From the NCBI GenBank assembly GCA_017502845.1, contig JAFVUE010000003.1, positions 1-52,024 on the forward strand: DNA of 52,024 bases, in the 5' to 3' direction. Under the pieces are notes generated by a model. That model was not told the origin of the DNA, made no database searches, and saw only the letters and a program-made list of their open reading frames with translations. This DNA comes from Clostridia bacterium (GTDB lineage: Bacteria > Bacillota > Clostridia > UMGS1810). Shown here piece by piece: positions 4,291 to 37,684 of the stretch. Numbering within the stretch: position 1 is the first letter of the stretch; each line of letters begins with the position of its first letter. The position numbers and the translations under genes are program-made.

Positions 4291-4368
4291 AATGATTTGG
4301 GGGCCCGAAAGATTGAAATTTGGATTTTGCATATGATACAACCAAAAAGTATATAAGAGGGTATGTTT

Positions 4369-5031
4369 ATGGGAATTTTTAATTTATTCAAAAAAAGTAA
4401 GCAAAATGTAATGCCAGAACCTCTTCCGACTCAAGAAGCACCGATTCAAAATGAATTGTCAAATCAAATCAAATCTATTGCTAAAGATAAATTGATTTTA
4501 TATTTCTCACATGACATTGTTGACCGTGCTTTCCGCAGTTTTAACATCTATTACCGTATTGAAGGATTATGTTTAACCGTAGAAACGGATTTTGGAAGAA
4601 GAATGACCATTGCACAAGCTAAAGATTATAATGAACTTCTCTTTAATGTAATTAAGGAATTATCAGAAACTTGCGCGAAGGAATACGAACTAATTCATAG
4701 AGAAAACAATTCAAAAAAATGGCATTATTTACGTTCAAAAGTAATCAATGGTTACTGGATGTATAAAGAAAATAGCGACTACAAGTATGATGCCATAGAA
4801 GACACTCGTAAAATATGGTTTGAAAAGCACATTGGCGCAATGGCAACTGTTTATTCGATTAAAGATATTGATTCATTGATTTTAAAATATACATCATTGA
4901 TGAATATGTCGTTTGTAGATTCGCATTGGTCATTTGACACCGATTTGATGGAGTTCATTGAAATCAGCTCTTCGAAAAAAAGAGATACAAATAATCAAGA
5001 ACATCCCCAACCAAACGAAATACTCAAATAA
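4369..5031 (+). CDS. Hypothetical protein, orphan
   Basis: A 220-residue soluble protein of no recognised family. It starts MGIFNLFKKSKQN, a short amphipathic basic N-terminus also seen in the unrelated gene at 36947-37618 (MFFKKFFGKKEK); such leaders can bind membranes or recruit partners, but that is inference. The middle is rich in aromatic and charged residues (FNIYYRIEGLCLTVETDFGRR, YNELLFNVIKEL) and the tail is polar. I chose the ATG at 4369 over that at 4363 because the AGAGGG site is seven bases from it. It follows uppP by 78 bases and ends before a terminator hairpin. Confidence 0.55.
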   Translation: MGIFNLFKKSKQNVMPEPLPTQEAPIQNELSNQIKSIAKDKLILYFSHDIVDRAFRSFNIYYRIEGLCLTVETDFGRRMTIAQAKDYNELLFNVIKELSETCAKEYELIHRENNSKKWHYLRSKVINGYWMYKENSDYKYDAIEDTRKIWFEKHIGAMATVYSIKDIDSLILKYTSLMNMSFVDSHWSFDTDLMEFIEISSSKKRDTNNQEHPQPNEILK

Positions 5032-27056: not shown

Positions 27057-28967
27057 TTACATGTCAACTGCCACCAGGAAGCGGAATGTTACTCTGCGGG
27101 AAGCAGCCAGATCCACATTGCCGTTTGCGTCATAAACCGGCTGACTGTTTGAATATCCCACGGCTTCCATTGTGTTCATGATTGCAGAAACGTCAACTCC
27201 TGTATCAGCAGACAGACAGTAATTCATTACGTTGTTTGCACGTTCCTCAGAAAGCGGCAAACCACTGGCATATGTACTTCCTTCCACAGGAGCAGTATGA
27301 CCTTCAACTATTGTTTTTGAAATAAATCCCGCATATTTTTCAGAGAAAGCGACATTTGTATATGCCTTGATGAACTTGTTCAGGAACACCTTGCCTTCAT
27401 CACTCAAAACTGCTGAATCTCCGCCGAACAAAACACCTGTATCAAGCGTTATGGTTCCGTCTTCTTTGTTTACTATAACAGCGATACCTTCCTGTTCAAA
27501 AGCGACAATCATATCGTCCAAAAGGGCGCCTTTACGCTGTGTAACATCTGAAAGACGAGAATTTGCAACGATCAGATATACATCCGTACCACCCTCATAT
27601 TTTGCATAAACATAATATGCCATAGGGTTACGTGCAGTATAACTGTATGACTGATATCCTTCAAGCAGTTTCTCACCGGTCATAGTGTCGACAAGATCAT
27701 ATCTGTAATTTGCACTTTCTACCTTTACAACCCACGGAGCGAATGCATATCCGCTGATTGTATAATCCTTGTCCTTGTGAGAATAATACATAGTTTTGTC
27801 ATCAATCTTCTTACTTGCAGTGAACTCGTTGGTAAACACAGTTGTATCCTTACCATCACCGCCGGTGAAGTAAATGGCACCGTTCTTATCTATCATTGTA
27901 TATCCCGAATCATTTTTCAGAATCCAGTGATTTCCGATGATTTTGTCATAATATACAAGGTCATAAGTTCCTTCGACTATGTTGTTTCCTTCCAGGTTGT
28001 ATACTTTGTTGTCCATCAAAATAACAGAACCGTAGCAAACAATGTTGCTGTTAAACTCTGCAGAGATAACATTGCCGGTTTTGTCCATTACAACGCTCTT
28101 GGTGCTTCCGTCAACATTCTTTGTTGCGACATAGCTTCCATCTCCATTTGCTGTTTTCGGAATAAATCCTGAAAGATCATAGCTGAACAACAGGTTGTGC
28201 TTATCATCGTACATCTCACCTGTTTTGCCTTCAACAGTATATGAGCCGTCTTCCAGCACATTTGCTCCTTCCGGCAAAAGATTTCCGTCAGCGTCGACGA
28301 TTATTCTTTCATCAGAACCGCCAAACTTACAGGTGATCACACCACCTTCGGCGAGGATATATCCCGCCTCTTTTGTATCTGTCAAACCGGGAACCTGCTT
28401 ACCTGTAGTAACGTCATAAACATACCATTTACCCTTATATAAAGCTTCCTGTTCAGCGGCTAAAGTAACCTTTTCATAACTTCCGTATTGAATAACCGCA
28501 TCATCGTCATCAACATATGTACGCTCTGTGGCTTCAAATACCTGAACGAATCTATCACTGATGAAATAGTAATCTGCATACTGGAAGGGAACTACAACTC
28601 TGCCCTTACCGTTAATCAGGCCAAAGGAATTAAGCCCTGCAACGTCATTATAATCAACAGCCATTTTCTCTGCAACAATAAAATGGCTCTTTACATCTCT
28701 GCAGGAAACATATTTTGCACCTGTATCGTATGTTCCTTCAAGAGACATAACACCATACAGGCCATCATCCCCCTTATAATAAAGACCACCTGAAGTTGTT
28801 GTGAAAACGTCTATGTCAAGTGTACCTACTTTTTCGGCTACAAGGAAATCATTAATCTGCGCGAACTCAACAGTATTTGTTTCAGCTTCTTTTTTGCAAC
28901 CTCCAAAAGATAATGCAAGTGCCGCAACAAGAATCAGCGACAGAATGGAACTTAGTCTTTTCTTCAT
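27057..28967 (-). CDS. Lipoprotein with WG-like repeats and OmpA-like C-terminal domain
   Basis: 636 residues from the ATG at 28967, chosen over an upstream in-frame start at 29051 because it follows GGAGG and gives a lipoprotein signal (LALSFGGC, lipid-attached Cys24). The middle is a series of WG-type beta repeats (FGLINGKGRVVVPFQYADYY; YTMIDKNGAIYFTGG). The last 130 residues resemble an OmpA C-terminal peptidoglycan-binding domain: TIVEGHTAPVEGSTY, LPLSEERANNVMNYC, SRRVTFRFLV. OmpA modules on lipoproteins are common in Gram-negatives but less so in Bacillota; here it could tether the protein to the wall. Role unknown. Confidence 0.72.
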   Translation of the reverse strand: MKKRLSSILSLILVAALALSFGGCKKEAETNTVEFAQINDFLVAEKVGTLDIDVFTTTSGGLYYKGDDGLYGVMSLEGTYDTGAKYVSCRDVKSHFIVAEKMAVDYNDVAGLNSFGLINGKGRVVVPFQYADYYFISDRFVQVFEATERTYVDDDDAVIQYGSYEKVTLAAEQEALYKGKWYVYDVTTGKQVPGLTDTKEAGYILAEGGVITCKFGGSDERIIVDADGNLLPEGANVLEDGSYTVEGKTGEMYDDKHNLLFSYDLSGFIPKTANGDGSYVATKNVDGSTKSVVMDKTGNVISAEFNSNIVCYGSVILMDNKVYNLEGNNIVEGTYDLVYYDKIIGNHWILKNDSGYTMIDKNGAIYFTGGDGKDTTVFTNEFTASKKIDDKTMYYSHKDKDYTISGYAFAPWVVKVESANYRYDLVDTMTGEKLLEGYQSYSYTARNPMAYYVYAKYEGGTDVYLIVANSRLSDVTQRKGALLDDMIVAFEQEGIAVIVNKEDGTITLDTGVLFGGDSAVLSDEGKVFLNKFIKAYTNVAFSEKYAGFISKTIVEGHTAPVEGSTYASGLPLSEERANNVMNYCLSADTGVDVSAIMNTMEAVGYSNSQPVYDANGNVDLAASRRVTFRFLVAVDM

Positions 28968-29049
28968 TTTAATCCTCCTCTTTTGATACGGCATATCTTT
29001 ATCAGAATATGTCGTTATTCCGAGATTTACATCCGGGAAATATACAGGC

Positions 29050-29078
29050 ATTATATCACTTTACGACATTTTTGTCAA
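29050..29078 (-). promoter_or_regulatory. Sigma-A promoter of the WG/OmpA lipoprotein
   Basis: Minus strand TTGACA, 17 bases, TATAAT, giving a 5' leader of about 75 bases. Confidence 0.85.
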
Positions 29079-32833: not shown

Positions 32834-33481
32834 TCATAAAGAATGTATTTTTATTTTATGCCTTTCCAAAACGCCTTTTTCTATTTTTTCTCCAAGGATT
32901 GCCTCCACCACATCGGCTGTGAAAAACCGCTTTTTTTCATCGGCAAAAACAGTATTTCCGCAACCCCTCATATCAACAGTTATGTCGTGATTGCCACCGT
33001 CTCCCGAACGGATAATTCCTACCCCGCCTGATGCACCGAGTTTAAGAGCAAGACCTGTGGAGGACAGAATCTCCGTGGCGATATATGATGCATCTTCTTC
33101 AGTTTCCAGAGACACATATCTGAAATGAGCTGCGGCGCATTTTATTATATCCAGTGTGATACCGTCCAGATCTGTATCATAAACAGTGCAATTCTCACAA
33201 TTTCCTGAAATCTTTGCAGCACGGGATATCATAAGAGGATATATGACTTGCATAAGTTCTTTGCCTGTATACAGTTCTATTCCCCGTTTTTCAAGTTCCG
33301 CAACTGTAAATGCAGGTACTTCCCCGCGGATTACGGCACGGTTCACTTTGTTTCGGGATATGAACCGCTTTAAGCGCCTTCGGGTGTTAAGCCCTTTTAC
33401 ATATATAATATCTGCACCCTCCACCGAAACGGATGAAATTTCAACTTTGTCCCCCGAAGATATAACCGCTATAACCGACAC
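32834..33481 (-). CDS. Hypothetical protein, orphan
   Basis: 215 residues from a GTG start that follows GGAGGTG at good spacing; longer readings have no ribosome site. The product begins VSVIAVISSGDKVEISSVSV and has a basic stretch NTRRRLKRFISRNKVNRAV, a C-x-x-C (GNCENCTVYD) and a Gly-rich KLGASGGVGIIRSGDGG. No signal or membrane segment. I do not recognise a family. It lies between the three-gene operon and greA, with a terminator upstream and its own weak promoter. Confidence 0.5.
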   Translation of the reverse strand: MSVIAVISSGDKVEISSVSVEGADIIYVKGLNTRRRLKRFISRNKVNRAVIRGEVPAFTVAELEKRGIELYTGKELMQVIYPLMISRAAKISGNCENCTVYDTDLDGITLDIIKCAAAHFRYVSLETEEDASYIATEILSSTGLALKLGASGGVGIIRSGDGGNHDITVDMRGCGNTVFADEKKRFFTADVVEAILGEKIEKGVLERHKIKIHSL

Positions 33482-33527
33482 CTTATCGCACCTCCTTATG
33501 GTGCAATTATATTTATATAAGGAAACA

Positions 33528-33556
33528 ATTATACCAAAAAGAAAACAGTATGTACA
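33528..33556 (-). promoter_or_regulatory. Weak promoter of the orphan gene, overlapping a terminator
   Basis: Minus strand TGTACA, 17 bases, TATAAT. The -35 lies in the terminator hairpin of the upstream operon. Confidence 0.4.
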
Positions 33557-33568
33557 AAACATACTGTT
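33534..33568 (-). terminator. Terminator of the three-gene operon
   Basis: Nine-pair stem AACAGTATG/CATACTGTT (33544-33568) followed on the minus strand by TTTTC-TTTTT, just after the stop of the TPR/coiled-coil gene. Confidence 0.75.
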
Positions 33569-33574
33569 CTCAAC

Positions 33575-35371
33575 TTAAAACAAAACTGTAAGAAGAAGTT
33601 CTTCCTCTTCTTTTTCTGCACGGAGACGTTCCTCTTCGAGACGGCGTTCCTCTTCAAGACGACGCTCTTCCGCAAGTCGACGTTCTTCTTCAAGACGGCG
33701 CTCCTCCGCAAGTCGTGCTTCTGCGGCAAGTCGTTCCGCTTCAATACGTGCCTTTTCCCGTTCCAGACGGAGTTCCTCTTCCTTCTGACGGCGTACGAAC
33801 TCTTCGTGCTGTCTCTTTTCTTCCTCGTACTCGGCTCTCATATCGGGATTCCATTTGAGTGTTCTCTCAATAAGTGCCTCATCCTCTGTTGTCCTTGCTT
33901 TATAATACACCGCTTCGCAAAGCCATTTTTCATCATCTATATTATCCGAAAGCGCAAGACGGCGAAGACCATATTCAGTAGCAAGACGGCTGTCCGTCTC
34001 GTAAAACATAAGATATTGCAAACTTTCAATATGATTTGGATCTTTCTGTATCTGCTGACGGTAATAGGGAAGCGCTTCCTCATCCTCGTGATCATAAGAT
34101 CTCTCTATAGCAAATCCACGGTACCAGGGATCGTAAGAAAAACCGTAAGTATCCATCTCGTCCATAGTTTCTGTCAGGTCATCATAATCATCATAATTAT
34201 CAACCTGTGCTTTCAAGAGGTTGTTATACACATATTTTTCATGTATACCGTGCATAAGTGCTTCTTTTGCATCCTCTACCGCCTCATAGGCATCACCGAG
34301 CATCCTGTTGTGATAAGAACGGTTACCGTAAGCATAGCCCGTCTGCTGACCAAGGTCGATTGCGACAGTGTACCATTTGACGCAATATTTGTAGTCTGCG
34401 TTCGTCATATTCTCCTTTTTGCTTCGGGAATATGCCATTCTGAACGCACAATCCACTATTTTTGAATTATAAGAGTTAGTCTCTCTGTCATTCTCGGTAT
34501 ATATGGCATCTGCCTTTGCATAATCCTTTGCAAGGTAATAATGTTCTCCCGCAAGAAGGTAATTATAACAAGCATTGCCAAGATTATTCTGATGACGATA
34601 CGCCCTTGCAAGGTGGAGCAGATAATTGGGTGGGAGTTGTTTATTACTCCTGGCAAGAAGTTCTCTGTACTGCTCAAGATATTCTACGATTGTATCGGAA
34701 TGAGAGGGAGCATTTTCTGCATTTGCGAGAGTTTCGGCAATATATGCTCTTACCTCGTAAGTGTCTTTGCAATCCATTGCTGTACAGAATGAATCATAAG
34801 CGTTCTGCACCTCTCCTGATTTAAGATATCGGAGTCCCTGCTCAATATAACGGGGATACTCTTTCTCTCTTGCGGCTTTCTCAGCGGCTTTCCTTGCCTC
34901 TTCCTGTGCCTGAAATCTTCTGAATTCCTCGTCGCGTGCCGCCTGTTCACGACGGCGTTGCTCTTCCATCTCACGCTGACGCTGTTGCTGTTCGCGTCTT
35001 TGCTGTTCCTGCTGCTGTTGCTGTTCTCTTTCTGCCCGCATTTCGTCTGCTATATCTGCAATATAATTATCGAAATTGCCCCAATAATCCATATCGGAAA
35101 GATATTCATGCACCATATCTTTGGTAATGCGAAGTCCTCTTGCAGCAGGTTTGCCCGGGGCATATCTGCCAAGATCCATACCTCCACCGAAGTTGTTGGT
35201 TCTCGTTCTCTTGTCGGGGTTGAACCTTGCTTTTTCTAAAACTTCGGAAACTACTTTCATACCTGTTGTGATGTTGCCATTACCATAATCCATACATTCC
35301 GCGATTGTCTGCATACTTTGTCTTTGGACTACATATCGATGTACGATCTCCGTAGCTTCTCTAATGTTCAT
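33575..35371 (-). CDS. TPR-like protein with coiled coils and a Glu/Arg repeat tail
   Basis: 598 residues, last gene of a three-gene operon. N-terminal 100 residues are a globular domain (IREATEIVHRYVVQRQSMQT). Residues about 115-170 are a Gln/Arg/Glu coiled coil (EREQQQQQEQQRREQQQRQ). Residues about 170-480 are helical with TPR-like A-helix patterns (LLHLARAYRHQNNLGNACYN). The last 90 residues are a long charged coil with repeats of ERRLEEERRLAE, from tandem repeats in the DNA at about 33600-33740. No signal peptide. It looks like a scaffold or adaptor. No named family fits well. Confidence 0.6.
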   Translation of the reverse strand: MNIREATEIVHRYVVQRQSMQTIAECMDYGNGNITTGMKVVSEVLEKARFNPDKRTRTNNFGGGMDLGRYAPGKPAARGLRITKDMVHEYLSDMDYWGNFDNYIADIADEMRAEREQQQQQEQQRREQQQRQREMEEQRRREQAARDEEFRRFQAQEEARKAAEKAAREKEYPRYIEQGLRYLKSGEVQNAYDSFCTAMDCKDTYEVRAYIAETLANAENAPSHSDTIVEYLEQYRELLARSNKQLPPNYLLHLARAYRHQNNLGNACYNYLLAGEHYYLAKDYAKADAIYTENDRETNSYNSKIVDCAFRMAYSRSKKENMTNADYKYCVKWYTVAIDLGQQTGYAYGNRSYHNRMLGDAYEAVEDAKEALMHGIHEKYVYNNLLKAQVDNYDDYDDLTETMDEMDTYGFSYDPWYRGFAIERSYDHEDEEALPYYRQQIQKDPNHIESLQYLMFYETDSRLATEYGLRRLALSDNIDDEKWLCEAVYYKARTTEDEALIERTLKWNPDMRAEYEEEKRQHEEFVRRQKEEELRLEREKARIEAERLAAEARLAEERRLEEERRLAEERRLEEERRLEEERLRAEKEEEELLLTVLF

Positions 35372-35377
35372 AATTCA

Positions 35378-36943
35378 TCAATCCTCCCTGTGGAGTTTCT
35401 TTTTCCAGACAAAACCTTCGTCTTTTACAACTACTTTACCTACAAAACCGCCTTTTTCAACATCAAAGGTGCGGGTGAAAGTTTCTTCGTTTTCATCAAA
35501 GATGTTTATGTTATGCTCTATTCTGTCGTAATCGCAAGGGATAACATACGCTTTCGACTCAAGTGAAAATACCCCTTTCTTGCCAAAACGTTCAACAATG
35601 ACATATCGGTCATTACTTGTTTTCTTTATATCAGTAAAAGCAAAAGGTGTTAACAGATAATCAAATTCCATACCCACCCCATCACGGTTGTTGGTAGATT
35701 TATATGATGCCACAGCATAGTAACCGTCTTTGTGTACTATATAATTTGTGCCCCAGCTCAACTGACGACCAAATTCGTATTCGGGATTTTTGCCGAAATA
35801 AAGATTGTAGCAATCCTTTGCACAGAGTTTACGGTCAGTAACGGGGATTTTTGCTGAAGTATCTGCTCCGAAAAGGAAAAGTTCGGGACCTGTAATTTTC
35901 ACAGCACTGGGTTCTTTTCCGTAAGGATACTTGTAATCGTCAAAAGAAACACCATTGCCGTTTAAGAGAACCAAACCCTCGCATTTTGCCGGATTGGGGG
36001 AATAAAGGATAACACCGTTTCCCTCTGCATCAACAAATCTGTCAACATATGAATCAATACCGGGACAGCGATCGGCATTAACGAAAAAGAAACGGGATGT
36101 GTTGATTTCCGATGGATCATCAAAGCCGAATTCTCTTTCATACAAATCTGTATATACTTTGTATTGGAAGCCATACTTCTCATATGCAATAATATGATAT
36201 TTACCGTCATGATAAGTCAGTATAACATCTTCAAACATAGGGGGCGTTATCTGGGAAACGTTGCCGTTGAAATAACCCCAGGGGCCGTATTCATCTAATT
36301 TATATTTGTATGCAACGAAATTGTCATTTTCTTCTTCAATGCAAAAATCAAGATATTCGAGTTTCTTTATTTCATAGAACTTATCAATTCTCAATTCGTT
36401 TTCTTCGGTCTTGATGAAAAATGAAATTATTTCTTCTGTATCAGGATTTACAACTACATAACTTCCGTCATCCGCTTTCTCAATTGTACAGAGTTCGTCA
36501 ACGAAAGAACTGTTGATATAACTGAATTCTTCATATGCAAGGAATGTGTTCGGATCATCTTCCTCGTCTGTGCCGAATGAGAAACGGTCATCATCTTCAA
36601 GACCTGCAAGTCCGCTTAATATTGATGCAAAAGCTGCAGCAAAAGAAGCATTTGTCTTTAAGTAATAACCATCTGCACCGTTGACGGGAATAACGCCAAC
36701 CTTTGCGGCATTGGGATCTTTTGTAAGGCAAGTATTACCCTGGGCAATGAGTTTTTCAAAAAGTTCATCGCCGCCGATTGCATAAAGTTCCTCAAAAACA
36801 GAAATGTGATTCTGACGCATACTTCCGTTTTCAAAATCAACTGCAGAAAATTCTCCGTCTCTGTCAGCGAAACCAAATCCGCCGTCTGCAACTTCTTTTC
36901 TTAATTCTTTGTCATTGATTAATTCTTCAACTGTGTATCTCAT
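35378..36943 (-). CDS. Hypothetical protein with WG-like repeats
   Basis: 521 residues, soluble, middle gene of the operon. N-terminus RYTVEELINDKELRKEVADG is helical; the rest is beta-rich. The C-terminal part shows WG-like repeats (ERFGKKGVFSLESKAYVIPC, DYDRIEH; YVDRFVDAEGNGVILYSPN), less regular than classic WG proteins. No signal peptide or membrane segment, so it is likely cytoplasmic, unlike the lipoprotein at 27057. Only six bases separate its stop from the next gene and three from the previous one, so the products are probably made together. Function unknown. Confidence 0.55.
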   Translation of the reverse strand: MRYTVEELINDKELRKEVADGGFGFADRDGEFSAVDFENGSMRQNHISVFEELYAIGGDELFEKLIAQGNTCLTKDPNAAKVGVIPVNGADGYYLKTNASFAAAFASILSGLAGLEDDDRFSFGTDEEDDPNTFLAYEEFSYINSSFVDELCTIEKADDGSYVVVNPDTEEIISFFIKTEENELRIDKFYEIKKLEYLDFCIEEENDNFVAYKYKLDEYGPWGYFNGNVSQITPPMFEDVILTYHDGKYHIIAYEKYGFQYKVYTDLYEREFGFDDPSEINTSRFFFVNADRCPGIDSYVDRFVDAEGNGVILYSPNPAKCEGLVLLNGNGVSFDDYKYPYGKEPSAVKITGPELFLFGADTSAKIPVTDRKLCAKDCYNLYFGKNPEYEFGRQLSWGTNYIVHKDGYYAVASYKSTNNRDGVGMEFDYLLTPFAFTDIKKTSNDRYVIVERFGKKGVFSLESKAYVIPCDYDRIEHNINIFDENEETFTRTFDVEKGGFVGKVVVKDEGFVWKKKLHRED

Positions 36944-36946
36944 TTT

Positions 36947-37618
36947 TTATTCCTCCGTTTTTGTTTTTCCTATTTCAAGATTTTTATTATATAAATGAAT
37001 AAGGTCATCTTCTTTAATTCCCTTAACCTTAGCATAACTCGGTGTGAATACGGCAAGATGGCTATGAATACTGAGAAACGTACCGCTTAATGGATGGCGG
37101 TCTTTTAACTTAGCAAAAAGCAAGAAAAGCCGTGGCGTTTCAAATACTACAGGCGTTGCACTGCCGTCATTATAGCACCAGATGTATTCCCCGTCTTTTA
37201 ATACTGCATAGGAAAGGGCTTCCTTGCTGTAATGTTCCTCGGCGTATTCCTGCTCCATTGTCATAACTTCGTTGGGATAAAAATTAACTTTCGGAATCAG
37301 CGGAGTCGCCTCTCCCTCAGGCAGATACCTTAAACGAAACGCCTCGTCAATGCGATCCCAGTAAATAGTCTGTCCGTCAATATCAAAGGGAATCAGACGT
37401 TCATCACTTTCAAGACTGACCGATGCCGTAAACTTTTCAATTTCGAGACTTTCGGAATCAACCCGGTCAAAGGAAAACTCAATTCTCTTTTCGTATGTAG
37501 CAATCTGTGTGAGCATATATCCGTAATCCGGCATATAAATGGACTTCTCGCCGACTTCAAATATATTCTTTACAGAAATGGGTTTTTCTTTCTTTCCGAA
37601 AAACTTCTTAAAAAACAT
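36947..37618 (-). CDS. Hypothetical protein, first gene of the three-gene operon
   Basis: 223 residues, no recognised domain. It starts with a short basic amphipathic stretch MFFKKFFGKKEKPIS, reminiscent of membrane-recruiting leaders and similar in style to the gene at 4369. The remainder alternates strands and helices with several aromatic patches (EYIWCYNDGSATPVVF, LSIHSHLAVFTPSYA). Its promoter is strong, and it is immediately followed by the WG-like gene. Unknown role; I would treat the three products as a functional set until tested. Confidence 0.5.
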   Translation of the reverse strand: MFFKKFFGKKEKPISVKNIFEVGEKSIYMPDYGYMLTQIATYEKRIEFSFDRVDSESLEIEKFTASVSLESDERLIPFDIDGQTIYWDRIDEAFRLRYLPEGEATPLIPKVNFYPNEVMTMEQEYAEEHYSKEALSYAVLKDGEYIWCYNDGSATPVVFETPRLFLLFAKLKDRHPLSGTFLSIHSHLAVFTPSYAKVKGIKEDDLIHLYNKNLEIGKTKTEE

Positions 37619-37655: not shown

Positions 37656-37684
37656 ATTATATACGCACAGGCACTTATTGTCAA
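37656..37684 (-). promoter_or_regulatory. Sigma-A promoter of the three-gene operon
   Basis: Minus strand TTGACA, 17 bases, TATAAT, 38 bases before the start of the first gene. Full consensus at both boxes. Confidence 0.85.

Follow-up and report, generated by a model that had tools for sequence, protein, structure and literature searches.

A candidate three-component system of rare Clostridia comprising a TPR/coiled-coil protein and two partners without a named family

Three consecutive genes of a Clostridia bacterium, here called A, B and C, probably work together, since all three were found in just 3 of 391 class genomes and A is present there even when it is not linked to the other two. 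They lie within a 52,024-nucleotide stretch of contig JAFVUE010000003.1 (hereafter, the window). We tentatively propose that rare Clostridia possess an undescribed system of these three components: C would serve as the scaffold, B and A (the latter possibly encoded elsewhere) would join it in one complex, and the components would be gained or lost as a set. If confirmed, this would be a small and experimentally tractable complex. The case is one of genes of unknown function that are tied by genome-wide co-occurrence, beyond adjacency alone, and the module defines two to three protein domains that are absent from Pfam and NCBIfam (the N-terminal domain of B, the head of C, and all of A).

All three genes are encoded on the minus strand, in the order A (36,947–37,618; an ORF of 223 aa), B (35,378–36,943; 521 aa), and C (33,575–35,371; 598 aa). 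The ORF coordinates leave gaps of 3 bases between A and B and 6 bases between B and C, in agreement with the tight three-gene operon described in the first-pass annotation of this DNA. Its full-consensus promoter and closing terminator were likewise recovered, the former as a sigma-70-type promoter just upstream of A (TTGACA-17-TATAAT, 12/12 match; 37,684–37,656, minus strand) and the latter as an intrinsic terminator after C (13-pair hairpin and T run, −15.7 kcal/mol; 33,571–33,541, minus strand). The upstream foldase gene has a terminator of its own (inverted repeat/hairpin, −18.1 kcal/mol; 37,815–37,781, minus strand), which would insulate the A-B-C operon. Given a promoter before A, a terminator after C, and this separate foldase terminator, A-B-C appears by sequence to be a self-contained transcription unit. 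A first-order simulation predicts about 0.05 chance occurrences of a perfect promoter over the full 52 kb of the window, and four were found (TTGACA-16/18-TATAAT, at 37,684, 32,824, 29,078, and 20,890), all of them on the minus strand. The three ORFs have homologues in two other families at 37–51% amino-acid identity, and third-position changes outnumber first- and second-position changes in these comparisons; A, B, and C are thus real protein-coding genes.

To evaluate co-occurrence, the same sample of 391 genomes of the class was used for each gene. The profile of B matched only the window's genome and two others (G046 and G148), and the profile of the N-terminal part of C gave strong matches in the same three. 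Strong matches to A were also confined to these genomes (E = 2.6e-151 in the window's genome, 2.9e-55 on contig C16 of G148, and 8.9e-43 on contig C30 of G046); two further marginal matches, in G197 and G042 (16–20 bits), were judged to be chance, and that in G197 contains stop codons. The probability that the two extra genomes of A equal those of B-C is 1/C(390,2) = 1.3e-5 by chance, if genomes are treated as independent. The three carriers represent three families of three orders; G148 belongs to the third order, as in the collection the window's family is the sole one of its order, and G046 is the sole genome of its own. With only three carriers, two of which are incomplete assemblies (72% and 62%), the co-occurrence rests on few events.

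B and C are adjacent in 3/3 carriers, with gaps of 3–11 bases. A adjoins B only in the window, whereas A and B-C are on different contigs in G148 (C16 and C42) and in G046 (C30 and C68; the latter contig is 3.8 kb long and could be mis-binned). Linkage is constant for B-C but not for A, and hence looser than in a fixed operon of three genes. The joint function inferred earlier from tight packing is partly supported, in that A, B, and C do share the same genomes, which was the check suggested in the first-pass annotation. This separation also has a positive side, in that an unlinked A provides independent evidence of shared function.

The distribution of these genes is narrow. Neither the remaining 15 genomes of the window's family nor the other three in the family of G148 contain B, and it was not found in further relatives of G148. 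The N-terminal domain of B was detected only in the window's own genome when 398 genomes sampled from the phylum were searched. A scan of a larger genome collection for C, which relies on short exact motifs and would overlook diverged copies, brought up just the two relatives already named (SVKB01000008.1 and JAGAUM010000231.1). Judging by their titles, both belong to metagenome-assembled genomes (Oscillospiraceae SIG450; Clostridia RGIG8785, from water deer colon).

Comparison with close relatives revealed where the genes are missing. A congener of the window's genome, G001 (lysS 88%, greA 95%, and prfB 94% identical), keeps the gene order secA-prfB-foldase-g242-greA-lysS and has an empty site of ~130 bp at the place of the operon. 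The terminator after C (33,541–33,571) and the foldase terminator of G001 (L030 13,362–13,425) share a common core (AACAGTAT/ATACTGTTTT), as would fit either insertion of the operon ahead of a terminator already present or its loss from that position. In G148, a YhcH gene and a LysM-CAP gene flank A. In G100, a congener of G148, the pair is separated by 52 bp with nothing between, and B is missing too. The genome of G100 is smaller, and argB and argC are likewise missing from it at the place of A, so that the absence of A may reflect general genome reduction. Beside the A homologue and the LysM-CAP gene, the G148 locus (L017 9,476–13,501) encodes an AAA+ ATPase of SpoVK/CbbX/EccA type and a YbjN protein, both missing at the matching place of G100. 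We considered these two as a fourth component and rejected this, as no copy of the AAA+ gene turned up in the window's genome or in G046, both of them incomplete assemblies. The location of A near greA in both the window and G148 was also dismissed as synteny, because the genes adjoining greA are not demonstrably related. With regard to history, A, B, and C are 37–51% identical among the three carriers, compared with 53% for greA and 60% for lysS; recent transfer among the carriers is unlikely, judging from a divergence that equals or slightly exceeds that of these two genes. The pattern could stem either from old presence followed by many losses or from old transfers.

No match above the curated cut-offs was obtained when A, B, C, and the homologues scanned were compared with Pfam, NCBIfam, PADLOC, and PHROGs, and no component or homologue matched a PADLOC-DB library model. 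The earlier statement that none of the genes belongs to a named system is consistent with this outcome, as the scans recognised neither a named family nor a defence system. The queries tried against plasmids, phages, and viral contigs (IMG/VR) also returned no match. Together with the lack of a tRNA and of element-like boundary repeats, this led us to reject a mobile-element reading.

Among the three products, C could be described best. Its G148 homologue was modelled in AlphaFold2 from an alignment of three sequences (mean pLDDT 77.9). The predicted protein begins with three short HTH-like helices (residues 3–41, pLDDT ~67–78) and a poorly modelled stretch that carries an invariant Gly-rich motif, NNFxGGxDxGRY (45–74, pLDDT 30–48). 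These are followed by a long coiled-coil helix of ~95 residues (96–191), a TPR helical solenoid (~195–512, most blocks at pLDDT 80–96), and a second long helix or coiled coil (516–594). The solenoid consists of tandem antiparallel helix pairs in the model, and TPR superhelix structures were the top Foldseek matches (E down to 1.9e-6). A profile search with C also matched TPR proteins (SGT2/SGTA, E = 5e-5), TPR for C being the only outcome of the PDB sequence search. The TPR/coiled-coil character predicted for the last product in the first-pass annotation is thereby supported from both structure prediction and sequence. The three-helix head, of moderate model confidence, matched no HTH family model. 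The C-terminal end has a conserved LLxxLF, which reads LL(T/A)(V/I)LF in both full-length homologues in the alignment and is a candidate docking tail. When compared with known TPR scaffold proteins (OGT, LGN, SGTA-type), C shares the predicted solenoid but differs in its HTH-like head, its Gly-rich motif, and its two long coiled coils, and no catalytic domain was recognised. In build, A-B-C is closest to TPR scaffolds with a beta-rich partner.

That partner, B, consists of an N-terminal domain (~residues 1–125), which is 59–63% identical between families, and a remainder that averages well below this level. The body is beta-rich and contains two WG-like motifs (~220–245 and ~452–475); their positions correspond in all three homologues, and each is followed by a P(P/C)x(F/Y)(E/D) turn. 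B thus resembles WG repeat proteins (PF14903, WG_beta_rep) in the motif and the following turn; however, it differs from them in having only two, widely separated motifs, in being dominated by a conserved N-terminal domain without a family, and in scoring below the Pfam cut-off (13.8 bits for the window's B vs. 25.6 for PF14903, E = 0.05–0.06). The earlier label "WG-like" can be kept for the motifs, which recur in the relatives, but not as a family assignment. The structure model of B was poor (pLDDT 45.8), and a Foldseek search with it gave no match below 0.001. Its VIA matches (Z ≤ 8.0) were mostly propellers and fell in the same range as those of models without a clear relative; a beta-propeller assignment was therefore discarded as insignificant and based on too poor a model. 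We found no relevant paper on the function of WG repeats. A second WG-like protein is encoded in the window (27,057–29,051, minus strand; 664 aa), with a lipoprotein-like start, WG-like repeats by eye in its N-terminal part, and a C-terminal OmpA domain (Pfam E = 1.8e-6).

A is an acidic, soluble protein of 223 aa (pI 5.1) that forms a family of its own; its profile shows no relation to that of B, and we rejected kinship between the two. The basic amphipathic leader peptide attributed to A by the first-pass annotation was not supported. The N-terminus of A is MFFKKFFGKKEKP, and its homologues begin with MFFKKKEKPI or ML-NWFNKKEEP. Read by eye, the three homologues have FF/NWF-KKE starts without a hydrophobic core, and the basic start is not followed by the hydrophobic segment of an export signal. 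Inspection of A, B, and C by eye revealed no evident signal peptide or transmembrane segment. A start of the same MF..FKK type is found in a 222-aa protein elsewhere in the window (4,363–5,031, plus strand), which has weak similarity to the Imm63 immunity protein (E = 3.4e-4, below the Pfam cut-off).

Our best reading, to which we attach slightly less than even confidence, is that the products of A-B-C form a cytoplasmic protein complex and that this module is accessory and non-essential. The coiled coils flanking the TPR solenoid would allow C to self-associate and to bind partners as a scaffold, and its HTH-like head and invariant Gly-rich motif may dock to DNA or to another target. B could be the obligate docking or sensor partner of C, with the N-terminal domain as its likely contact or active part and the WG-like, beta-rich body as a platform for binding a ligand or protein. 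A would be a third soluble component acting in trans, which would account for its retention even when unlinked. The role of such a module would be regulatory or stress-related rather than enzymatic.

It is possible, though unlikely, that only B and C form a functional pair and that A is an unrelated accessory of the same sporadic genomes, captured into the operon in the window's lineage alone. This would be consistent with the linkage of A to B-C only in the window, and with unrelated neighbours elsewhere (a HAD phosphatase and a nuclease-like gene in G046, the LysM-CAP and AAA+ ATPase genes in G148). It fits poorly with strong matches to A in exactly the B-C carriers, a coincidence of the small probability calculated above, and with the packing of A 3 bases from B in the window.

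The proposed complex also has to be weighed against two functional alternatives. Patchy presence, clean empty sites in congeners, and conserved domains without a named family are features that an anti-phage or conflict system could show; such a sporadic cassette would pair a TPR/HTH sensor-scaffold with an effector concealed either in A or in the N-terminal domain of B. The AAA+ ATPase near A in G148 has weak IetA-like similarity that would suit such a system, but its best named match is SpoVK/CbbX/EccA and it was not recovered in the other two carriers, both incomplete. Housekeeping genes surround the operon in the window, with no other defence gene recognised around it, and neither PADLOC nor the plasmid, phage, and viral-contig queries tried gave a match. 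We consider a conflict system quite improbable on these grounds. RRNPP regulators of the Rap/PlcR/PrgX type combine an N-terminal HTH with a TPR array, and a cognate small secreted peptide is encoded alongside. C could be a regulator of this kind, in which the head binds DNA, a ligand on the TPR solenoid acts as the switch, and B or A provides that switch; in favour of this, C is predicted to carry both an HTH-like element of three helices and a TPR array. C differs from them, however, in the 95-residue coiled coil between head and TPR and the other after the TPR, in its constant large partner B, and in matching no HTH or RRNPP family model, which makes this the case to which we give very little credence. 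Moreover, no small peptide gene was recognised beside C among ORFs of at least 60 aa, where its neighbours are B and a protein of 216–242 aa. The gene next downstream of C in the window (32,834–33,562, minus strand) encodes a protein without a Pfam family, and its true start is probably a GTG near 33,481 behind AAGGAGG.
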